From: an uncultured Pelagibacteraceae bacterium
GTDB taxonomy: Bacteria; Pseudomonadota; Alphaproteobacteria; Pelagibacterales; AG-422-B15
NCBI GenBank assembly: GCA_902510025.1
Contig: CABWZX010000006.1
Coordinates: 1 to 33,646 of the forward strand
Direction: 5' to 3'
Length of the DNA stretch: 33,646 nucleotides
The position numbers and the translations under genes are program-made. The notes beneath the pieces were generated by a model. It saw only the letters and a list, made by a program, of their open reading frames with translations, was not told the DNA's origin and ran no database searches. This document shows positions 13,071 through 32,709 of the stretch, piece by piece (positions within the stretch are counted from its first letter, which is position 1; the number at the start of each line of letters is the position of its first letter).

Positions 13071-13676
13071 TTATTGACTGATCATCTTCTTAAGCTTGGC
13101 TAACTGAACATATCCTGGGATAATAGTATCATTTACTATAGAAGCAGGGGTCCCCCTCAAGCCTAAATTTTTAGCAATTTTAATATTAGAATCAATAATT
13201 AAATTTTTCTCAGAAGTTTGTGCTTTCGAAAACATACCTGCACCATCAAAACCATTCGTATCTAGCAATTGGATAAGATCATTTTTTTTCATTTTTGGCC
13301 CTAGTTTCATAAATTCATTGTGGATTTGAAAATATAAATCTGGCTTTTGTTCCCAAACATCCATAGCAAGTTTGGAGGCAGTTTCAGAAATGCCACCGAA
13401 AATAGGAAATTCTAAATAGATAATTTGAACATTGTTATGGGACTCAAGAAGCTTTGCATAATCATATGCTTGTTTACTGCAATACCCACACCTATAATCA
13501 AAAAATTCAACTATTACATAGTCTGGATTGTCACTGCCGACATTTGGAACTTCCTGCAAATCATAATTTCTAACAACAAATTTTGCTAAGTTTGATTGGT
13601 CTTCTGCAAAATTAATATTAGTTAAACCAAATATTACAATTAAGGAAAATAATACTAATCTTAATTTATTTCTCAT
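13071..13676 (-). CDS. Periplasmic DsbA-family thiol-disulfide oxidoreductase
   Basis: The 201-residue protein has an N-terminal signal (residues 1-24, ending INFA before EDQ). Its thioredoxin-fold DsbA/Com1-type domain carries the active site C63-G-Y-C66 in FFDYRCGYCSKQA and the cis-proline loop RGTPAS near residue 175. The helical insert lies at about 95-160. It should oxidise or reshuffle disulfides in exported proteins; the cysteine-rich DUF3604 protein encoded nearby is a candidate client by inference. The start overlaps the end of murU by 11 bases, so expression is coupled to the muramate recycling genes. The length matches the short DsbA/Com1 group. Confidence 0.88.
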   Translation of the reverse strand: MRNKLRLVLFSLIVIFGLTNINFAEDQSNLAKFVVRNYDLQEVPNVGSDNPDYVIVEFFDYRCGYCSKQAYDYAKLLESHNNVQIIYLEFPIFGGISETASKLAMDVWEQKPDLYFQIHNEFMKLGPKMKKNDLIQLLDTNGFDGAGMFSKAQTSEKNLIIDSNIKIAKNLGLRGTPASIVNDTIIPGYVQLAKLKKMISQ

Positions 13677-14370
13677 TAAATTGATCCAGTGTTTCTATTG
13701 ATCCTATATGAAAGATTTCATTACTATTTTTATATCCCATAAGTCTATCATTGGAAATGCTTCTATTCCAGATCTTGTTTATGGAAAAAATATTTTCTTC
13801 AAAATTAACGAACGCATTTTTTGAAATAATTTGAGCCCCACAATAGACAAAAGGGCTTTTATCATTGTCTTGATATCTACAAATTTTATTTTCATCTAAA
13901 AAAACAAAATCTCCTTCTCCCTTATAGCCTTTAGTATTTTCCATCGACGAAAGACAAAGCAACGCGTCGCAGGAATTTTGATCAAACATAGCATCCATTG
14001 CTTTTAAAGAACTAATTTGCTTTTCATCCCATAAAACATCACTGTTCACTACTATGCTTTCAGTTCCATTAATTAAGCTCATGGCCTTTTTGACACCCCC
14101 GCCAGTATCTAGTATTTCAGAAGATTCATCAGAAATCTTTATTTTTGAGTTACCTAAATTTTTTAAGAACTCATTTATCTTCTCAGATTTATAGTGAACA
14201 TTAATGATGATTTCTTTAACTTCTAACGATTCAAGAAAATCAATACTGTATTGAATCAGAGGTTTTCCCTTAAAACTAATTAAAGGTTTAGGAACTTCAT
14301 GTGTTAGATGACGCATACGTTTCCCGAACCCCGCTGCTAAAATAATGGCTGATTTTGTATTTATACTCAT
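13666..14370 (-). CDS. murU: N-acetylmuramate alpha-1-phosphate uridylyltransferase (MurU-like)
   Basis: The 234-residue nucleotidyltransferase has L11-A-A-G-F-G-K-R-M-R20 as the nucleotide loop, K28-P with PLIQYSIDFL following, DTGGGVKKA in the acceptor region and VNSDVLWD as a metal-binding aspartate segment. MurU makes UDP-MurNAc from MurNAc-1-phosphate in the peptidoglycan recycling shortcut that bypasses fosfomycin-sensitive steps. The assignment over a generic sugar-1-phosphate transferase rests on the upstream AmgK-type kinase, with which it overlaps by 4 bases, and on the tsaE-amgK-murU order common in Alphaproteobacteria. Confidence 0.85.
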   Translation of the reverse strand: MSINTKSAIILAAGFGKRMRHLTHEVPKPLISFKGKPLIQYSIDFLESLEVKEIIINVHYKSEKINEFLKNLGNSKIKISDESSEILDTGGGVKKAMSLINGTESIVVNSDVLWDEKQISSLKAMDAMFDQNSCDALLCLSSMENTKGYKGEGDFVFLDENKICRYQDNDKSPFVYCGAQIISKNAFVNFEENIFSINKIWNRSISNDRLMGYKNSNEIFHIGSIETLDQFNEK

Positions 14371-15344
14371 AAGAATTTATTTTTGTAAACCGATATCCAT
14401 GATTTTAATTCTATAAAACTTGGATCTTCAAGATGTAAATTAATAAAATTCCAAGCATTATTTATTAACTCCATATATTTAGGTTTTTGATCTCGATATT
14501 TTAATCTTGAAAAAATTCCAATGATCTTAAGGTTTCTCTGGACAGAAAAAAATCTCATTTCTTTAAAAAGTTTTTTTCGGTCATAGTTAGTAATATAAAT
14601 ATATTCTTCTATTAATTGCTCTTTCAGCTGAACTGTAATAGGTCTTCGTACATCTTCTAATAAAGAAACAAGGTCATAGATATTAGAACCTATCACTGCA
14701 TCTTGAAAATCAATAACTCCAACTTGGTTTATTCCTTTTCTGTCTTTTAATAGAATTAGATTGTCTACATGATAATCGCGTAAAACTAATGAAGAGTTTG
14801 TAGAATCAATTCCTTTAAATATTTTTTTTAAGATCTCTTGATATTCTAATTTTTCTTTATTTGTTAATTTTATTTGACAATGCTTTTCCATAAACCAATC
14901 ACAAAATAGATTCGATTCTTCAAGCAATTTATCTATTGAATAAAAAGGTATTTCTTTCTTATTAAATTTTTTCTCATTTGACTCTAAATAAATATGTGCA
15001 AGAACACCAATTGCATTTTGGTATAATGCATATTCGTTTTCATCTTTTAATATTCTTGAAAATATTTGGTCACCCAGATCTTCTAATAAAATAAATCCAT
15101 TATTCTCATCAATGCTATGTATAGCTGGAGCACTTATGCCCATTTCAAGAAGAATTTTATCAACTAGATGAAACGATTTAACAGATTCTCCTTTTTCATG
15201 TGGGGCGTCCATAATCAAAGTGTTATTCCCACTGATACGATAGTATTTTCTAAATGATGCATCTGTTTCAATAAGGTGCATATCATTATTTGAAATGTTA
15301 TTAGATTTTATAAATTTGTTTAAAAGCTCTATTCTTGCATCCAT
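14367..15344 (-). CDS. amgK: N-acetylmuramate/N-acetylglucosamine anomeric kinase (AmgK-like)
   Basis: The 325-residue protein belongs to the aminoglycoside phosphotransferase/choline kinase fold. Catalytic features are D190-Y-H-V-D-N195 (Brenner-type motif in VLRDYHVDNL) and the metal site I-D212-F-Q-D in VIDFQDAVIG. The N-terminal lobe has DASFRKYYRI, typical of AmgK. It phosphorylates recycled MurNAc or GlcNAc at C1 in the cytoplasm and passes the product to MurU, encoded next with a 4-base overlap. The start overlaps tsaE by 16 bases, a tight coupling. Confidence 0.87.
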   Translation of the reverse strand: MDARIELLNKFIKSNNISNNDMHLIETDASFRKYYRISGNNTLIMDAPHEKGESVKSFHLVDKILLEMGISAPAIHSIDENNGFILLEDLGDQIFSRILKDENEYALYQNAIGVLAHIYLESNEKKFNKKEIPFYSIDKLLEESNLFCDWFMEKHCQIKLTNKEKLEYQEILKKIFKGIDSTNSSLVLRDYHVDNLILLKDRKGINQVGVIDFQDAVIGSNIYDLVSLLEDVRRPITVQLKEQLIEEYIYITNYDRKKLFKEMRFFSVQRNLKIIGIFSRLKYRDQKPKYMELINNAWNFINLHLEDPSFIELKSWISVYKNKFL

Positions 15345-15787
15345 AAATAATTTTTTTTGTTATATAAACCAAGTAAAGCAAATGTAATTGATCTTTTATT
15401 ATTTGGTTTTATTTCAAAATTTATTTCTATTCTGTTAGATGGTAAGGCTTTTTTAAATTTGTTAGCCCATTCTATAATACAAATATTATTTTCAACAGAT
15501 TCACTATAATTTAATTCAATTAACTCGTCTATTTTGTTCAATCGGTAAAAATCATAGTGATAGATGCTTTTTTTTTGATCTTCATATATTTGAAGTAATG
15601 TAAACGTAGGACTTGGAATATCGTCATTGATACTATTTGAAAGCAAAGAACGTATAAGATATCTAGAAAATGTGGTTTTTCCAGAACCTAAATCTCCGTT
15701 TAAGCAAATTGTGGCATTTGTATTATTGATATCCTTAGCAAGTTTATTTGCTATTTTCTGTGTTTCTTCTTCATTAGAAGCAATCAT
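15329..15787 (-). CDS. tsaE: tRNA t6A biosynthesis ATPase TsaE
   Basis: The 152-residue P-loop protein has Walker A G31-D-L-G-S-G-K37-T-T, the switch-like SPTFTLLQIYE, HYDFYRL and IIEWANKF, all standard for TsaE (YjeE). It works with TsaB and TsaD to make N6-threonylcarbamoyladenosine at position 37 of ANN-decoding tRNAs. Length is typical. It starts 30 bases after ahcY and overlaps amgK by 16 bases. The C-terminus YNKKNYLWMQE is slightly extended. Confidence 0.93.
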   Translation of the reverse strand: MIASNEEETQKIANKLAKDINNTNATICLNGDLGSGKTTFSRYLIRSLLSNSINDDIPSPTFTLLQIYEDQKKSIYHYDFYRLNKIDELIELNYSESVENNICIIEWANKFKKALPSNRIEINFEIKPNNKRSITFALLGLYNKKNYLWMQE

Positions 15788-19581: not shown

Positions 19582-21162
19582 ATGGAAAATGCAATAAATT
19601 CAATAATTCTTGAAAAAGCTAAGTCGATAAAGAGAAATCTATCGTCGGATGAATTATATGAAATCGCCTATAAAACTAAAGAGGGAAAAGTTTCAAAGCA
19701 CGGTGCTCTTGTAGTTAATACTGGAGAGCATACTGGCAGATCCGCTAATGATAAATTTTTTGTTAAGGAAGCCAAGAACGAAAAAAAAATCCACTGGGGA
19801 GAAACCAATGTTCCAATTAGTGAAGAAAAATTTGATAAAATATTAGAAAGTTTTATTGATTACGCTCAGAACAAAGATCTATTTGTACATGACCTTCTAG
19901 GTGGAGCTGACAGGGACAATTGCTTAGGAGTCTCAATTATTACTGAATATGCCTGGCATGGATTATTTGCTCGACATTTATTGGTCAGGCCAACTACAGA
20001 GGAAACTAAAAATTTTTCTAGTGAATTTACGATTATTAACTTTCCTAATTTAAAAATGGATCCTGCTCATCATGGAACAAGGAGTGAAACAGTAATAGCT
20101 GTCAACCTTGATAAAAAAATTATCCTTATTGCTGGAACTAAATATGCCGGCGAAACTAAAAAGTCTGTTTTCACTCTATTAAATTTTATCTTACCAGAAA
20201 AAAATATAATGCCCATGCACTGTTCAGTAAATACTGGTAAAAATGGAGACTCAGCAATATTTTTTGGTTTGTCAGGAACTGGCAAAACTACCTTAAGTGC
20301 AGATCCAAACCGCTCTCTCTTAGGAGATGATGAACATGGTTGGTCTGATCAAGGATTATTTAATTTTGAAGGAGGTTGCTACGCTAAACTTATTAGACTC
20401 TCTAAAGAAGCGGAGCCAGAAATTTATGCAACCACTCAAATGAAAAATTCAGTAATCGAAAATGTCGTAATGAACGAGGAAGGTGAACTAGATCTTGATG
20501 ATAACTCCTTAACTGAAAATACTAGAGGAGCTTATCCTATTGATTTTATTCCTGGTGTAACACTTTCAGGCAAAACCACACATCCAAAAAATATTATTAT
20601 GTTAACAGCCGATGCATTTGGTATTTTGCCACCTATTGCAAAACTTACTCCTAATCAAGCTATGTACCATTTTTTGTCCGGGTATACTGCTAAAGTTGCT
20701 GGGACAGAAATTGGACTTTCAAACGAACCACAAGCAACATTTTCTACATGCTTTGGTGCACCATTTATGCCAAGAAATCCAATAGAGTATGGAAACCTTC
20801 TTAAGGAAAAAATATCAAAGCATAATGTTAATTGTTGGCTGGTTAATACAGGCTGGTCAGGGGGTGTCTATGGAATAGGCAAAAGAATTTCAATAAAGTA
20901 TACTCGAACACTTCTCAATGCTGTACTTACTGGTGAGTTAGATAATATTGAAATGCGTAAAGATAGTAATTTTGGTTTTTCAGTTCCTCTTAAAGTAAAA
21001 AATATAGACAGCAATATCTTAGATCCGCGAAATACTTGGCAAAATAAAGATGATTATGATAGTCATGCAAAGAAATTAGTTCAGATGTTTATAGATAATT
21101 TTGTTAAATTTCAATCTGACGTTGAAGAAAAAGTGCGAGCGTCAGGACCGATTTCAAATTAG
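19582..21162 (+). CDS. pckA: Phosphoenolpyruvate carboxykinase (ATP)
   Basis: This cytosolic enzyme converts oxaloacetate and ATP to PEP, CO2 and ADP, the entry step of gluconeogenesis. The 526-residue protein has the substrate loop TGEHTGR53-S, HHGTRSE (about 163-169), Mn-site HCSVN, P-loop G229-L-S-G-T-G-K-T236, kinase-2 motif LLGD249-D250-EHGW, GGCYAK, and [11 protein letters not shown]. All are typical of the ATP-dependent form. Divergence from chvI is the normal alphaproteobacterial arrangement and suggests ChvI control. The stop overlaps the convergent MFS gene by 4 bases. Confidence 0.96.
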
Positions 21163-22427
21163 TTGCTTACTGCAAGCTCAGAATCTTTTTTATAAGAAAA
21201 TCCAGCAATATAAAAACAAATAATAGATATTATGCCAGTTGCACCAACAGTAATTAAAGAGAATGTATAAGGTGCAGATGAATTATTAAATACATGATCA
21301 ATTAAGTAACCTGTAAAGAAACTTCCAACGCCCATTCCAACTATATTTACCCCTAAAATAAAAATTGCTACCATTGTTGATCTTACTTTAACTGGTGTTA
21401 ATGCTTGGACTGAACCAAAAACAGGTCCATAAAAAAAAGTCACGTTTAGAGAAATAAAGAATAGTGTAAAATAAAAAATAAAGGTATTTGGGTCTACAAA
21501 GCGATAGCTAATTGTGAGAGGAATTAAAACCAAATAAGAAATGGTCAAAAAACTCATTACACCATTTTTAAATAAATGATTCAATTTGTCAGACAATACG
21601 CCCCCCAAAACTGCACCAATTGAACCACCTACTATAAAAAAAATACCAAACAGAGAATTATATTCACTAGATGTAAATCCTCTTTCATTCACAGCCCAAA
21701 GAACTTCAAAATTACCGGCTCCAAGAGGTATATGTAAAAAAATACTACCTATAATAATTAAAGTTAGAGACTTTGAATTGTATAATGTTGATTTTGTTAA
21801 ACTAATAATTTCTCTAATGCTCATAGATTTTTTATCATTTTGAGAGGAGTTATCTAATTGACCTCTGATGGGTTCAATTAAAAAATATGTGATAATGGCT
21901 AAAACCACACCTATAAGTCCTAGTGAAATAAATACTGCCCGCCATCCAAACATTGGTCCAAATATTGAGGCTATCAACATGGCTAAGCCAACACCTAGAG
22001 GTATACCAAGATAGTAAATGGCAGAAGCAGTTCCTCTTTTATTTTGATTGTATACATCTGAAAGCATTGAAATTGAATTTGGAGTTAAAGCTGACTCACC
22101 AACCCCAATCAATGCTCTTGCAACTATTAAATGAGCAAAGTTTTTAGCCATGCCAGTAAATGCTGTCATAAGACTCCACAAAAAAACTCCTGCTGCAGCA
22201 ATCTTCATTCTGTTAAATTTATCACCTAGTACTCCCATAAATATTCCAAATACAGAGTAAAAGAAAAGGAAATAAACGCCTGTCAACAATCCCCATTCTA
22301 CATTTGTAAGATTGAAGTCTGACTTAATCTGAGGCGCAAAGGCAATGAGAAGATTTCTGTCGATAAAATTAAATATATTTAGAAGTAAAAAAAAGGCTAA
22401 ATAAAAATGTGGTGAGTACGTTCTCAT
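21159..22427 (-). CDS. Major facilitator superfamily transporter, spinster-like
   Basis: The 422-residue protein has 12 predicted membrane segments. The N-terminal [19 protein letters not shown], the loop 2-3 motif GDKFNRMKI and [16 protein letters not shown] are typical of the spinster-like/ACS branch of MFS. Position R83-area K/R residues and the central loop ([17 protein letters not shown]) split it into two halves. Substrates in this branch range from organic acids to lipids; none can be inferred. It is the last gene of the polA operon, 3 bases after the nucleotidyltransferase-cupin gene, and overlaps pckA convergently by 4 bases. Confidence 0.88.
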
Positions 22428-22430
22428 ATA

Positions 22431-23207
22431 TTAAGCCCTACTGTAATCATCTTCATATCTTTGTATATCATCTTCTCCAAAATAACTACCTGTTTGAATT
22501 TCAATAATATGAAGTGGTTCATTTAATTTATTTTCAAGTCTATGCTTAGATCCGGTCGGAATATAAACTGAATCATTAACTTTTAAGGTTGAAATATTTT
22601 CATCAACGGTAACTGTTGCTTCGCCTTTAATCACAACCCAAATTTCTGATCTTTTGGAATGTGATTGTAAGCTTAATCTTGATTTAGAATTGACTTGAAT
22701 TTCCTTTACCTTGTGATCTTCGCTGCCATCGATAACTCTATAGCATCCCCAAGGCCGTTGTTCTTTTGGTCCATGCCAATTCTTTAAAATCCAACTTGAT
22801 GAGTTTTTCTTAAAATTACCACCAACACTAAATTCAAAATGAACATTTGGATCATCCCCATGCATTTTCATTTCAGGTATATTTTCAGAATTACGATCGC
22901 CTCCATTTGCAAATATTATTTTATGATTTGGATATTTTTCTGCAACAACAGTAATTGCATTCGCCGCTGAATTATATTCGTCATCTTCAAATTCTATTGT
23001 CTCATCAACCACCGATAAGTTTGAGACTATTTCGATTCGTTCATTTATTGGAAGGAATGCACTTCCTTTTTTTTGAACAAGCCATTTATCTGAATTCAAA
23101 CCAACAACCAATTTATCACCTAACATCTTTGCAGACTTAAAATATGCTATGTGTCCTGAATGTATGGGATCAAATCCACCTGTTACTAATACTATTGTTT
23201 CAACCAT
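22431..23207 (-). CDS. Fusion: HIGH-type nucleotidyltransferase plus ManC/PMI-type cupin
   Basis: Residues 1 to about 135 form a cytidylyltransferase-like domain with TGGFDPIH16-SGH19, LVVGLNSDKWL and a later NSSSWILKNW segment, related to HldE2/RfaE2 and TagD. Residues about 145-258 match the C-terminal cupin of type II mannose-6-phosphate isomerase/mannose-1-phosphate guanylyltransferase: EQRPWGCYRVID, SRLSLQSHSKRSEIWVV, YIPTGSKHRLEN and GSYFGEDDIQRYEDDY. The N-terminal part of ManC (GMP transfer) is absent, so this is not ManC. It probably activates a sugar phosphate or polyol and isomerises a sugar, but the substrate is unknown. Its ATG shares a base with the polA stop. I cannot name a characterised homologue. 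Confidence 0.8.
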   Translation of the reverse strand: MVETIVLVTGGFDPIHSGHIAYFKSAKMLGDKLVVGLNSDKWLVQKKGSAFLPINERIEIVSNLSVVDETIEFEDDEYNSAANAITVVAEKYPNHKIIFANGGDRNSENIPEMKMHGDDPNVHFEFSVGGNFKKNSSSWILKNWHGPKEQRPWGCYRVIDGSEDHKVKEIQVNSKSRLSLQSHSKRSEIWVVIKGEATVTVDENISTLKVNDSVYIPTGSKHRLENKLNEPLHIIEIQTGSYFGEDDIQRYEDDYSRA

Positions 23208-26008
23208 TAGTGAGCTTCATTCCAGTTTGCACCATAATTACTATCTACTACCAATGGAACATCTAATTGAAATAATGGCTCTAAGGCTTTCTCCATCTCT
23301 TGGGTAATCATTTTTATATATTTATCAATTTTACTTTTTTTTATCTCAAAAATTAGCTCATCGTGTACTTGTAATAGCATTTTACAATCTTTCTCGTCCA
23401 AAGATAACTTATTATTAATATTAATCATTGCAAACTTAATAATGTCAGCTGCTGTACCTTGTATAGGTGCATTAATAGCTGCTCTTTCTTGAAAAGATCT
23501 GAGTGCAAAATTTTTATCTTTTATTCTGGGGAAAAAGCATTTTCTTCCACATAAGGTTTCTACAAATCCATCTAAACGACACTTTTCTTTTGTTGTATCC
23601 ATAAACTCTTTTATTCCTGAGAACTTATTGAAATAACTTTTTATAAATTCATTAGCCTCAAAATTTGTAATCGATAATTGTTTTGCTAAACCAAAAGCTG
23701 AAATTCCATAAATGATTCCAAAATTTACCGCCTTTGCTTGCCGTCTTAAATCTTGAGTAACATCTTTTAATTTTACATTAAATATTTCTGAAGCAGTGAT
23801 TTGATGGATATCTTCATTATTATTGAATGCTTCTTTTAATTGAGATACATCGGCCATATGAGCAAGCACTCTTAACTCAATCTGACTGTAATCAGCTGAC
23901 AAGATTACATTTCCTTTTTCTGCTATAAAAGCAGTTCTAATTGAACGTCCTTCATCAGTTCTAATTGGAATGTTCTGTAAATTTGGATCAGAAGATGCTA
24001 GACGGCCTGTACTTGTTGAAGCCATAGCATAGGAGGTATGTATTCTTTTAGTTTTGTTTACTATATGGTTTTGAAGAGCTTCGGTGTATGTATTCTTTAG
24101 TTTTGATAATTGTCTCCACTCAATAATATCCTCAGCTACTTCATTACCCTCATATGCGAGATCTTCCAATACAGATATTCCAGTTGATTTTTCACCGGTT
24201 TTAGTTTTTTTGGGGGGAGATAATTTTAATTTATTAAATAATACATCAGATAATTGTTTTGGAGAGCCAATATTGAATTCTACTTTAGTCTTTTTATATA
24301 TTTCTTTTTCCAGCCCTAATATTCTTTTAGAAAAATCATTAGATAATTTCTGAAGATAACTATTATCAACTTTAATACCATTAATTTCCATTCTCATGAG
24401 GCAAGCAACTAATGGTTTTTCAATAGTCGAATAAACCAAGGAATTGTTTTCTTGTTGAACCCTTTTCTTGAAAAATCTATACAGTTTATAAGTTATTTCT
24501 GCATCTTCAGCGGCATATTCTGTAGCTCTTTTTAAATCTACTTGATCAAATGTTAATTGTGACTTTCCGGATCCAACAACATCTTTAAATTTTATTGTCT
24601 CTCTATTTAAATGGATCCTTGCTAATTCGTCCATTCCATGACGATTAACTCCAGCATCACAAGAATAGGACATGAGCATAGTGTCTTCATAGCTATTAAC
24701 TTCTAAATCATATTTTTTGAGGATTGAGATATCATACTTGATGTTATGTCCTATTTTTATGATTGATTCATCTTGCATTAATAACTTCATTTCATTCATA
24801 AAATCTTTCATTGGAACTTGTTCTTGTACCATAGTATTCAATGCATCTTTATGTTGCAGGGGTATGTAGTAAGCATTTTCAAAATCAAAACAAATAGAAA
24901 CCCCCACTAAATTTGCCTCTATAATATTTAAAGAGTCTGTTTCAACATCAAAAACAAAATGGCCTACATCATTAATATCATTAATTATTTTTTTTAATTT
25001 TTCTATTGAGCTCACTAAGAAATATTTAACTTTTTTGGATGGGAAATTATTTTCTTCTGTATCATTGCTAACATCTTTAGATTGTTCTGTTTTTTGAAGA
25101 GGTCTTTGCTTTGCTTTAATTTTAATATCTGGATTTTTTTTAATAATTCTTTCTGATAATTTGTTTAATTCTAAATCAACTAAAAAGGGAACAAGTTTAG
25201 AAATAGAAATTTCCTTTTTTTCTAATTCTTCAAGTTTTGGAATATCTTTGACATCATTCTTGAGCGTAACTAGTTCTTTGCTAATTTTAATTTGATTAAT
25301 ATTATCTTTAATGCTTGCTTTTCTTTTAATTTGTTTAATCTCATCAAAATTCTTCAATAATTTTTCTAAGTCTCCAAATTGATTAATTAAATCTGCCGCA
25401 GTTTTTATACCTATACCAGGAGCTCCCGGTATGTTATCGGAGCTATCTCCCGCAAGAGCCTGGACATCTATAACTTTATCTGGTTTAACACCAAATTTTT
25501 CATAAACTTGATCTGGGCCTATAGTCTTATTTTTCATGGTATCTAGTAAATTTATATCTTTACTTACAACCTGCATTAAATCTTTATCAGAAGAAACAAT
25601 TGAAACTTTCCATTTTTTTCTTGAAGCCTGGGTGGCATAAGTTGCAATAATATCATCAGCTTCAAAACCTTTTAATTCTATAGATTTAATCCCAAAAGCT
25701 TCGACTGATTCTTTTATAATTTTAAATTGTGGAATTAAATCTTCTGGAGGATCTCCTCTATTTGCCTTGTACTCATTATAAATCTCATTTCTAAATGTCT
25801 TTCTCGCACTATCAAAAATTACTGCAATGTGTGATGGTTTAATTTTAATATTAGTATCTTCAATAAGTTTATAGAGCATATTACAAAATCCGTTAACAGC
25901 ACCTGTCGGAAGCCCATCTTGTTTTCTATATAGTGCAGGTAAAGCATAATAAGCTCTAAAAATGTATCCTGACCCATCGATTAGGAATAAATGATTTTTA
26001 TTGGACAT
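23207..26008 (-). CDS. polA: DNA polymerase I
   Basis: The 933-residue enzyme has three domains. A 5' nuclease spans about 1-290 (LIDGSGYIFRAYYA, VIFDSARKTFRNE, EADDIIATYA, SSDKDLMQ, ALAGDSSDNIPG). A proofreading 3'-5' exonuclease covers about 325-520, with catalytic D354-x-E356 in FVFDVETDSL, the NIKYD motif and YAAEDAEIT. A family A polymerase occupies about 540-933, with SADYSQIELRVLAH, RRQAKAVNFGIIYG and LLQVHDELIFE. All active-site motifs are intact, so proofreading is retained. It fills gaps in replication and repair. It begins 3 bases after the zinc-finger gene and shares one base with the next gene. Confidence 0.97.
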   Translation of the reverse strand: MSNKNHLFLIDGSGYIFRAYYALPALYRKQDGLPTGAVNGFCNMLYKLIEDTNIKIKPSHIAVIFDSARKTFRNEIYNEYKANRGDPPEDLIPQFKIIKESVEAFGIKSIELKGFEADDIIATYATQASRKKWKVSIVSSDKDLMQVVSKDINLLDTMKNKTIGPDQVYEKFGVKPDKVIDVQALAGDSSDNIPGAPGIGIKTAADLINQFGDLEKLLKNFDEIKQIKRKASIKDNINQIKISKELVTLKNDVKDIPKLEELEKKEISISKLVPFLVDLELNKLSERIIKKNPDIKIKAKQRPLQKTEQSKDVSNDTEENNFPSKKVKYFLVSSIEKLKKIINDINDVGHFVFDVETDSLNIIEANLVGVSICFDFENAYYIPLQHKDALNTMVQEQVPMKDFMNEMKLLMQDESIIKIGHNIKYDISILKKYDLEVNSYEDTMLMSYSCDAGVNRHGMDELARIHLNRETIKFKDVVGSGKSQLTFDQVDLKRATEYAAEDAEITYKLYRFFKKRVQQENNSLVYSTIEKPLVACLMRMEINGIKVDNSYLQKLSNDFSKRILGLEKEIYKKTKVEFNIGSPKQLSDVLFNKLKLSPPKKTKTGEKSTGISVLEDLAYEGNEVAEDIIEWRQLSKLKNTYTEALQNHIVNKTKRIHTSYAMASTSTGRLASSDPNLQNIPIRTDEGRSIRTAFIAEKGNVILSADYSQIELRVLAHMADVSQLKEAFNNNEDIHQITASEIFNVKLKDVTQDLRRQAKAVNFGIIYGISAFGLAKQLSITNFEANEFIKSYFNKFSGIKEFMDTTKEKCRLDGFVETLCGRKCFFPRIKDKNFALRSFQERAAINAPIQGTAADIIKFAMININNKLSLDEKDCKMLLQVHDELIFEIKKSKIDKYIKMITQEMEKALEPLFQLDVPLVVDSNYGANWNEAH

Positions 26009-31276: not shown

Positions 31277-32242
31277 CTATTTTACTAAGTAGTTTTTAAT
31301 ATAATCCTTAACTCCTTGTTCGATAGTTAAAAAATCTTTTTTATACCCAGCTTTGCGTAAATTATTCATTTTAGCTTTTGTATAATATTGGTAGCCATTT
31401 CTTATTCTGTTTGGAGTTGGGACATAGTTGATATTAGGTTTGATATTAACATTTTTAAAAACTGTCTTTGCTAGATCATAGAATGTTCTCGATTTACCAG
31501 TGCCTACGTTATAGATGCCTGTTAGTTTTCTTTTTTTAAGCAACCAAATTACAACTTTAACACAATCTTTAATGTAAATAAAATCTCTTGATTGTTTGCC
31601 ATCGGCAAACTTTTTATGATGAGATTTAAATAATTTTAGTTTCTTTGTCATTTGAATTTCCTTTAAGAATTTTGGAATAGGACTCATCATAAATCCTTTA
31701 TGTAATTCATTTGGTCCATAAACGTTAAAGAACTTTAAACCAACAGGATTTGATTCTAATTTTTCACCTGATTTAATTAAGCTGAGAATGTGTAGATCAA
31801 ATAAATGCTTACTTAATCCATAATAGTTTATTGGTTTAAGTTTGAGAAAATTATTAAATGAATTTTCATCGTCATAATAGTCAAAACTGTTTCCATACGT
31901 AGCAGCTGATGAAGCATATATAAATTTAATATTATATTTATTACAAATATTAAAAAGTTTGAGAGAATATAAATAATTATTATTAAGTAAAAGCTCTAAA
32001 TTGGTTTCATCTGTTGCGCTAATTGCACCCATATGAATAACAGCAGATATTTTTTTCTTATTTTTTTCAACAAATGAGAATATTTCATTAATCTTAATTA
32101 TCTTTTTTCCTTTAACAGGAGCGATATTCTTCTTCTTTATTGGATCATTAAGTTTATCACATATGACAACTCTATATTTTTTAGATAATTCTTGAGCAAT
32201 ATTTGAACCAATAAAACCTGCGCCTCCTGTAACTATAATCAT
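31277..32242 (-). CDS. hldD: ADP-L-glycero-D-manno-heptose 6-epimerase
   Basis: This short-chain dehydrogenase-fold enzyme inverts C6 of ADP-D-glycero-D-manno-heptose to give the L,D form for LPS inner core. NAD(P)-binding T5-G-G-A-G-F-I-G-S is at the N-terminus; SSAATYG carries the catalytic serine/threonine and Y141-G-L-S-K145 is the Y-x3-K pair. KFFNVYGPNE and RDFIYIKD are typical of HldD/RfaD. The 321-residue length is normal. The start overlaps hldC by 4 bases, making it the third gene of the heptose operon. It is lysine-rich, as expected in this AT-rich genome. Confidence 0.92.
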   Translation of the reverse strand: MIIVTGGAGFIGSNIAQELSKKYRVVICDKLNDPIKKKNIAPVKGKKIIKINEIFSFVEKNKKKISAVIHMGAISATDETNLELLLNNNYLYSLKLFNICNKYNIKFIYASSAATYGNSFDYYDDENSFNNFLKLKPINYYGLSKHLFDLHILSLIKSGEKLESNPVGLKFFNVYGPNELHKGFMMSPIPKFLKEIQMTKKLKLFKSHHKKFADGKQSRDFIYIKDCVKVVIWLLKKRKLTGIYNVGTGKSRTFYDLAKTVFKNVNIKPNINYVPTPNRIRNGYQYYTKAKMNNLRKAGYKKDFLTIEQGVKDYIKNYLVK

Positions 32243-32709
32243 TTCATTCTCTCATTGATAATTTTGGTTGTGCTAAATCCTGGCAATAAATCAATGACTT
32301 CTACAGAACCACCATTTTCTATTACAAACTTAGATCCAACTATATCGGCCTTATTATAATCGCCTCCTTTTATTAGTATGTCTGGGTTTAAATATTTAAT
32401 AATATTTTCTGGAGTTTCGGTATTGAATATAGCTACAGCATCAACCTCTTTCATTTTTGATAAGTTCTTTGCTCTTTGTTCTTGATTTTCTATTGGACGG
32501 TTCTCGCCTTTAAGTATCTTTACTGATTCATCTGAGTTCAAACCTACTATTAAAAAATCACATCTCTTTTTTGCTTCTCTAATTAAATAAAAATGCCCCT
32601 CATGAAGCAAGTCAAAGCAGCCATTGGTAAAGCCAATGATTTTCTTATTACCGATATCAGCAATCTTTTTTAAAATTTCTTTTTCTCTAAGAACCTTTTC
32701 TTCGCTCAT
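32239..32709 (-). CDS. hldC: D-glycero-beta-D-manno-heptose 1-phosphate adenylyltransferase
   Basis: The 156-residue HIGH-type nucleotidyltransferase has TNGCFDLLH36-E-GH39 for ATP binding and GLNSDESVK and KGGDYNKADIVG further on, as in the HldE C-terminal domain. It transfers AMP to heptose 1-phosphate to give ADP-heptose. It is separate from the kinase (split HldA/HldC form) rather than fused as in E. coli HldE. It abuts hldA with no gap and overlaps hldD by 4 bases. It is a distant relative of the fusion protein at 22431-23207, but without a cupin domain. Confidence 0.92.
   Translation of the reverse strand: MSEEKVLREKEILKKIADIGNKKIIGFTNGCFDLLHEGHFYLIREAKKRCDFLIVGLNSDESVKILKGENRPIENQEQRAKNLSKMKEVDAVAIFNTETPENIIKYLNPDILIKGGDYNKADIVGSKFVIENGGSVEVIDLLPGFSTTKIINERMK

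Follow-up and report, generated by a model that had tools for sequence, protein, structure and literature searches.

A HIGH-superfamily nucleotidyltransferase fused to a ManC-type cupin as a probable GDP-mannose synthesis enzyme of a SAR11-order family

In the ManC/AlgA family (TIGR01479), an N-terminal GT-A NTP_transferase region of about 350 positions, the guanylyltransferase (GTase), is followed by a type II phosphomannose isomerase (PMI) cupin. The HIGH superfamily, which includes the nucleotidyltransferases (NTases) HldC/HldE (TIGR02199) and TagD (TIGR01518), has known members that use CTP or ATP. The window analyzed here, a stretch of 33,646 nucleotides from an uncultured Pelagibacteraceae bacterium (contig CABWZX010000006.1, assembly GCA_902510025.1), encodes a protein in which a HIGH-superfamily NTase precedes a ManC-type cupin. 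This fusion is probably a bifunctional enzyme of GDP-mannose synthesis and an analogue of ManC, with its NTase serving as a non-orthologous mannose-1-phosphate guanylyltransferase. The role given to the NTase draws on the operons of its unfused relatives, on the replacement of the ManC GTase across genomes and on genomes that hold no other candidate enzyme. The domains and motifs of the fusion lie as follows.

22431-23207, minus strand: open reading frame (ORF) of the NTase-cupin fusion, 258 aa (ORF call, Pfam and family matches)
22773-23207, minus strand: HIGH-superfamily NTase domain, residues 1-145 (Pfam PF01467; AlphaFold model, pLDDT 90.1)
22434-22769, minus strand: ManC-type PMI cupin, residues 147-258 (PF01050, E 3.9e-38; fold match)
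23151-23162, minus strand: HxGH motif HSGH, residues 16-19 (H16, G18 and H19 invariant in 67/67 relatives)
22893-22907, minus strand: subfamily signature NGGDR, residues 101-105 (invariant in 67/67)
22794-22802, minus strand: C-terminal SSS motif, residues 136-138 (S137 and S138 in 67/67, S136 in 65/67)
22644-22667, minus strand: predicted cupin metal-site motif QSHSKRSE, with Q181, H183 and E188 (Q181, H183, R186 and E188 in 72/72, ManC cupins included)
22542-22544, minus strand: H222, fourth predicted cupin metal ligand (71/72)

The fusion shares with ManC the order of NTase then cupin, a homologous cupin, the same metal-site residues and the same predicted pathway, and it differs at the N-terminus, where a HIGH domain of 145 aa takes the place of the GT-A domain. 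Pfam matches to CTP_transf_like (PF01467; residues 8-103, E 4e-12) and MannoseP_isomer (PF01050; residues 149-253) both exceed their cut-offs. The TIGR01479 match is confined to profile positions 358-466, which are the cupin (127.7 bits, E 5e-37; full-length cut-off 372.95 bits), and the GTase part of ManC is therefore absent; Pfam gives no match to the GT-A domain PF00483 in the protein. With two defining features failing, the fusion is not a ManC by the definition of that family, although it probably works like one. HldC/HldE has the same HIGH fold and HxGH motif, stands among the best fold matches in the PDB and supplies the best NTase profile, yet the fusion scores 66.9 bits against an equivalog cut-off of 181.5, about 115 bits short, carries its own signatures NGGDR and NSSSW, and has relatives with mannose rather than heptose partner genes. 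TagD shares the fold and the catalytic motifs, and it differs in score (43.7 bits, where the cut-off is 165.4) and in its glycerol-phosphate context, which is missing here. Activation of heptose or glycerol phosphate was rejected on these scores, which fall far below the cut-offs.

Alignments of 67 NTases keep G10-P14, H16, G18, H19, N38, W42, L43, K46-G48, F51, R57, N101-R105, E112, G129-G130, K133, S137 and S138 invariant, and W153, G154, K168, S179, Q181, H183, R186, E188, W190 and G195 are invariant in 72 cupins, ManC ones among them. The NTase thus combines the HxGH motif, the conserved Lys/Arg, the C-terminal S/T motif and the Rossmann-like fold of the HIGH superfamily, and the SSS motif occupies the position that in TagD and HldC holds the S/T-rich nucleotide-binding motif. 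The C-terminus has the Q, H, E, H metal site of type II PMI cupins. Because catalytic-type residues are kept across both alignments, both domains should be catalytic. An AlphaFold model of the whole fusion is confident for each domain (pLDDT 90.2), and its pTM of 0.58 leaves their mutual placement uncertain. The cupin fold matches the archaeal phosphomannose isomerases 7zvm and 7zvy (TM 0.86), and the solved folds nearest to the NTase are 3glv, HldC 5xf2 and TagD 1coz.

The original prediction had described a HIGH-type NTase paired with the ManC cupin, a missing ManC guanylyltransferase and a protein distinct from the hldC of the heptose operon, and each of these descriptions holds. Apart from the fusion itself, the genome has a single match, the genuine hldC, a paralogous NTase outside the system that is 36% identical across residues 7-110. 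That forecast would have fallen with a loss of active-site residues, and all of catalytic type are kept in both domains, or with a known family of the same architecture and an assigned reaction, and none was found in NCBIfam or Pfam. No paper assigning a reaction to this NTase or to the fusion was found in the literature covered, from which preprints and most subscription papers lay outside. As far as could be found, the architecture is widespread yet functionally unassigned.

The partners of the NTase are seen most directly where it is unfused. In two alphaproteobacterial genomes (G117 and G272), a PMI cupin, a phosphomannomutase (PMM) and the NTase are encoded consecutively. The order in G379 is GDP-fucose synthase (FCL), GDP-mannose 4,6-dehydratase (GMD), glycosyltransferase, NTase and PMM; it is GMD, glycosyltransferase, NTase and PMM in G169, and GMD, FCL and NTase in G267. 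The identity of the PMM is firm (PF03332, E 1.8e-26 to 2.8e-31; PDB phosphomannomutases, E down to 7.6e-29), and the GMD matches lie above the model cut-off. No PF02878 phosphohexomutase was found in the 0.8-Mb genome of G272 (95% complete), and the PF03332 phosphomannomutase is present there. At a further locus (L166, G362:C17), the NTase is present twice, in near-identical copies separated by 8 kb, within one polysaccharide-type region with GMD downstream.

The second line of evidence is the distribution of the NTase across 385 alphaproteobacterial genomes, of which 218 have a ManC GTase, 38 have a ManC match in the cupin only and 129 have neither. The NTase occurs in 17 of the 38 cupin-only genomes and in none of the other 347 (0/218 with ManC GTase and 0/129 with neither; Fisher 4e-7 and 1.6e-19, uncorrected for phylogeny), its bearers span 10 families, and in two more cupin-only genomes the NTase copy is cut at a contig end. 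The ManC GTase is absent from 18/18 tested genomes of the window's family and present in 7/7 of a sister family, all without the NTase. Among genomes that lack the ManC GTase, GMD (E<=1e-90) is found in 12/17 NTase bearers vs 9/80 non-bearers (p 1.5e-6, again uncorrected for phylogeny). In a phylum-wide sample of 399 genomes no further bearers appeared; the rows listed were all Alphaproteobacteria and say little about other classes. Together with the operon partners, this replacement of the ManC GTase points to mannose-1-phosphate and GDP-mannose.

GDP-mannose is used in some NTase-bearing genomes that contain no known enzyme for its synthesis. The one GT-A NTP_transferase of G145, which is 97% complete and has GMD, is GlmU; those of G267 are only GalU-like and GlmU-like, and G272 has a single GalU-like one. 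The genome of the window (55% complete) has a GMD at 556 bits, its detectable GT-A NTases are an RmlA-like one, a MurU-like one and one of 456 aa, the length of GlmU, and PGM/PMM-type mutases were found in all genomes of the family tested. The MurU-like NTase (13666-14370), which matches MurU/HddC weakly, was considered as the missing mannose-1-phosphate guanylyltransferase and rejected because a similar-sized NTP_transferase occurs in the ManC-bearing sister family and none in G145 or G267. Cupin proteins of 402 aa in the sister family were likewise considered as similar fusions and proved to be shortened, genuine GT-A ManC proteins. In two such loci (L054:2616-3821 and L056:2097-3290), ManC has about 400 aa, and the TIGR01479 match breaks from about 289 to about 339, with the linker before the cupin missing.

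In the proposed pathway, the C-terminal cupin would interconvert fructose-6-phosphate and mannose-6-phosphate, a separate phosphomannomutase would form mannose-1-phosphate, and the N-terminal NTase would convert this and GTP to GDP-mannose and pyrophosphate. From the operons and the phyletic replacement we infer both reactions, and with them GTP and mannose-1-phosphate as substrates. The HIGH domain would then be a non-orthologous substitute for the GT-A GTase domain in the same N-terminal position, and the sharing of ManC's domain order supports a ManC-like function. Bacteria would pass the GDP-mannose to GMD-type pathways for deoxy and amino sugars and fucose, or to mannosyltransferases, for surface glycans, and phages to the glycosyltransferases encoded beside the fusion.

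Several observations weigh against this pathway. To our knowledge, no HIGH-superfamily enzyme uses GTP or mannose-1-phosphate. In the window, the fusion has no PMM gene as a direct neighbour, and GMD is absent from 7/18 tested genomes of its family and from three isolated cyanophages with an unfused NTase. Nineteen cupin-only genomes have neither the ManC GTase nor a detected NTase; among them, G185 has GMD. Eight GMD-bearing genomes have none of ManC GTase, cupin-only match and NTase. Because such cupin-only and GMD-bearing genomes lack both enzymes, a third solution or gaps must exist; for G185 and the other 18 cupin-only genomes, the explanation may be a third mannose-1-phosphate guanylyltransferase, gaps in the assembly or a different use of the cupin.

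The strongest alternative, though an unlikely one, is that the NTase activates another sugar phosphate, such as that of an uncommon hexose, a pentose or a polyol, with CTP or ATP, the cupin being the isomerase of that sugar. The nearest characterised folds and profiles would suit such an enzyme, as they belong to HldC (ATP), TagD (CTP) and choline-phosphate and ethanolamine-phosphate cytidylyltransferases, and the phage NTases sit in variable glycosylation cassettes. However, the partners PMM, GMD and FCL need mannose-1-phosphate and GDP-mannose, and the NTase is present only where the ManC GTase has been lost. The suggestion in the original prediction of an unrecognised sugar or polyol is doubtful for the same reasons, while its outline of an isomerase and an NTase yielding an activated sugar was right and can be sharpened to GDP-mannose. 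That the NTase makes CDP-mannose or ADP-mannose, with GDP-mannose coming from elsewhere, is improbable: the nucleotide preference of the superfamily and of its nearest profiles and folds would favour CTP or ATP, but GMD and FCL share the operons, and no further enzyme forming GDP-mannose could be detected in, for example, G145 and G267. An HldC-like heptose adenylyltransferase paralogue with a regulatory, non-catalytic cupin has the best NTase profile in its favour and is very improbable, given the distance of that score from its cut-off, the genuine hldC in the same window, the invariant metal ligands of the cupin and the operons shared by unfused cupin and NTase.

GDP-mannose synthesis by the fusion fits a wider picture, held with somewhat less confidence, in which a second, unrelated kind of mannose-1-phosphate guanylyltransferase, built on the HIGH fold and using GTP, has replaced the ManC catalytic domain in several alphaproteobacterial lineages including the SAR11-order family, has become joined to the PMI cupin, perhaps on more than one occasion, and is widespread in aquatic phages, where it would supply their glycosyltransferases with GDP-mannose. 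If true, this would close a gap in the metabolism of abundant marine bacteria, the formation of GDP-mannose where ManC is missing. It would also extend the known substrates of the superfamily to GTP and mannose-1-phosphate, and a phage gene family with at least 594 matches in IMG/VR would gain a function. In the trees, family f51 seems to have acquired its fusion separately (NTase 94/94, cupin 88/92), and a single origin is not rejected (p-AU 0.32); the NTase-cupin fusion has perhaps formed twice.

At least 594 IMG/VR contigs encode the NTase, for which the current names go no further than 'cytidyltransferase-like' or 'heptose adenylyltransferase'. Among viral structures, the best match is to a protein from an uncultured virus, labelled 'cytidyltransferase-like' with no function named, at 33% identity across 216 columns. 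Among the best 80 IMG/VR matches, 78 have the cupin in the same ORF, and published phages have the NTase and the cupin in separate genes. The gene after the phage fusion lies on the same strand in 74/78 and usually overlaps or abuts it, most commonly with a 4-base stop/start overlap. Ten of these downstream genes were scanned, giving four GT8 glycosyltransferases above the Pfam cut-off, one weak GT8, one other weak glycosyltransferase and four without a match. GMD-like genes occur on 6/47 phage contigs with the fusion or the NTase, directly upstream in two (L108 and L128). This neighbourhood would fit a supply of GDP-mannose to the glycosylation of host or virion. One phage ORF of 710 aa (L134:4995-7127) reads as a fusion apparently extended by glycosyltransferase-like sequence.

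HIGH-superfamily NTases, cupin isomerases and glycosyltransferases have already been grouped in NDP-sugar clusters of cyanophages and jumbo phages in a 2021 review, which suggests that the phospho-sugars come from PfkB kinases (PMC7824862). The passages of that review on these clusters name no sugar, fusion, mannose-1-phosphate, GTP or ManC replacement. The mannose-6-phosphate isomerase of cyanophage S-SCSM1 lies near GMD and GDP-fucose synthase genes and is a cupin homologous to that of the fusion; it is monofunctional, as are, by description, all environmental copies in that study, in contrast to the two-domain fusion (PMC9602691).

The neighbours of the fusion and the separate hldC lie as follows.

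23207-26008, minus strand: polA, upstream (its stop overlaps the start of the fusion in TAATG)
21159-22427, minus strand: MFS transporter gene, downstream (neighbour conserved across the family)
32239-32709, minus strand: genuine hldC

The fusion stop and the MFS transporter gene are 3 nt apart. Matches occur in 49/53 genomes of the window's family (48 with both domains, one cut at a contig end), and the order polA, fusion, MFS transporter and pckA is constant in 30/30 loci read; the fusion is no product of chance or of assembly, and the ORF is real and encodes a two-domain enzyme. The nearest named relative, a Pelagibacteraceae single-cell genome, has a copy 88% identical. The architecture had been called unusual, which is apt beside characterised enzymes and fails for the uncultured phages and this family, where it is common. 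Its placement in a polA operon is real and conserved in the family and carries no functional signal, as the adjacency is absent from related lineages. In three cyanophages (S-SSM7, Sf-FS3 and P-TIM68; L003-L005), the gene for gp43 DNA polymerase is followed, directly or after one small gene, by that of an unfused NTase, much as polA precedes the bacterial fusion; this arrangement is not shared by other lineages. A link to DNA replication was rejected as incidental because relatives in other lineages have pyrE, pyruvate kinase or capsule genes as neighbours, while the fusions of phages are found close to recA-like or sugar genes. A role in defence was also set aside, as a PADLOC search at E 0.01 matched no model.

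Elsewhere in the genome of the window, at L188 (G000:C19), GMD lies beside a DegT-type aminotransferase gene, which might indicate a GDP-amino-sugar; pseB and pseC, genes of a pathway of pseudaminic-acid type, are adjacent. Positions 13666-15787 of the window hold murU-, amgK- and tsaE-like genes in a row, an arrangement that resembles peptidoglycan (MurNAc) recycling, with the MurU match below its cut-off.
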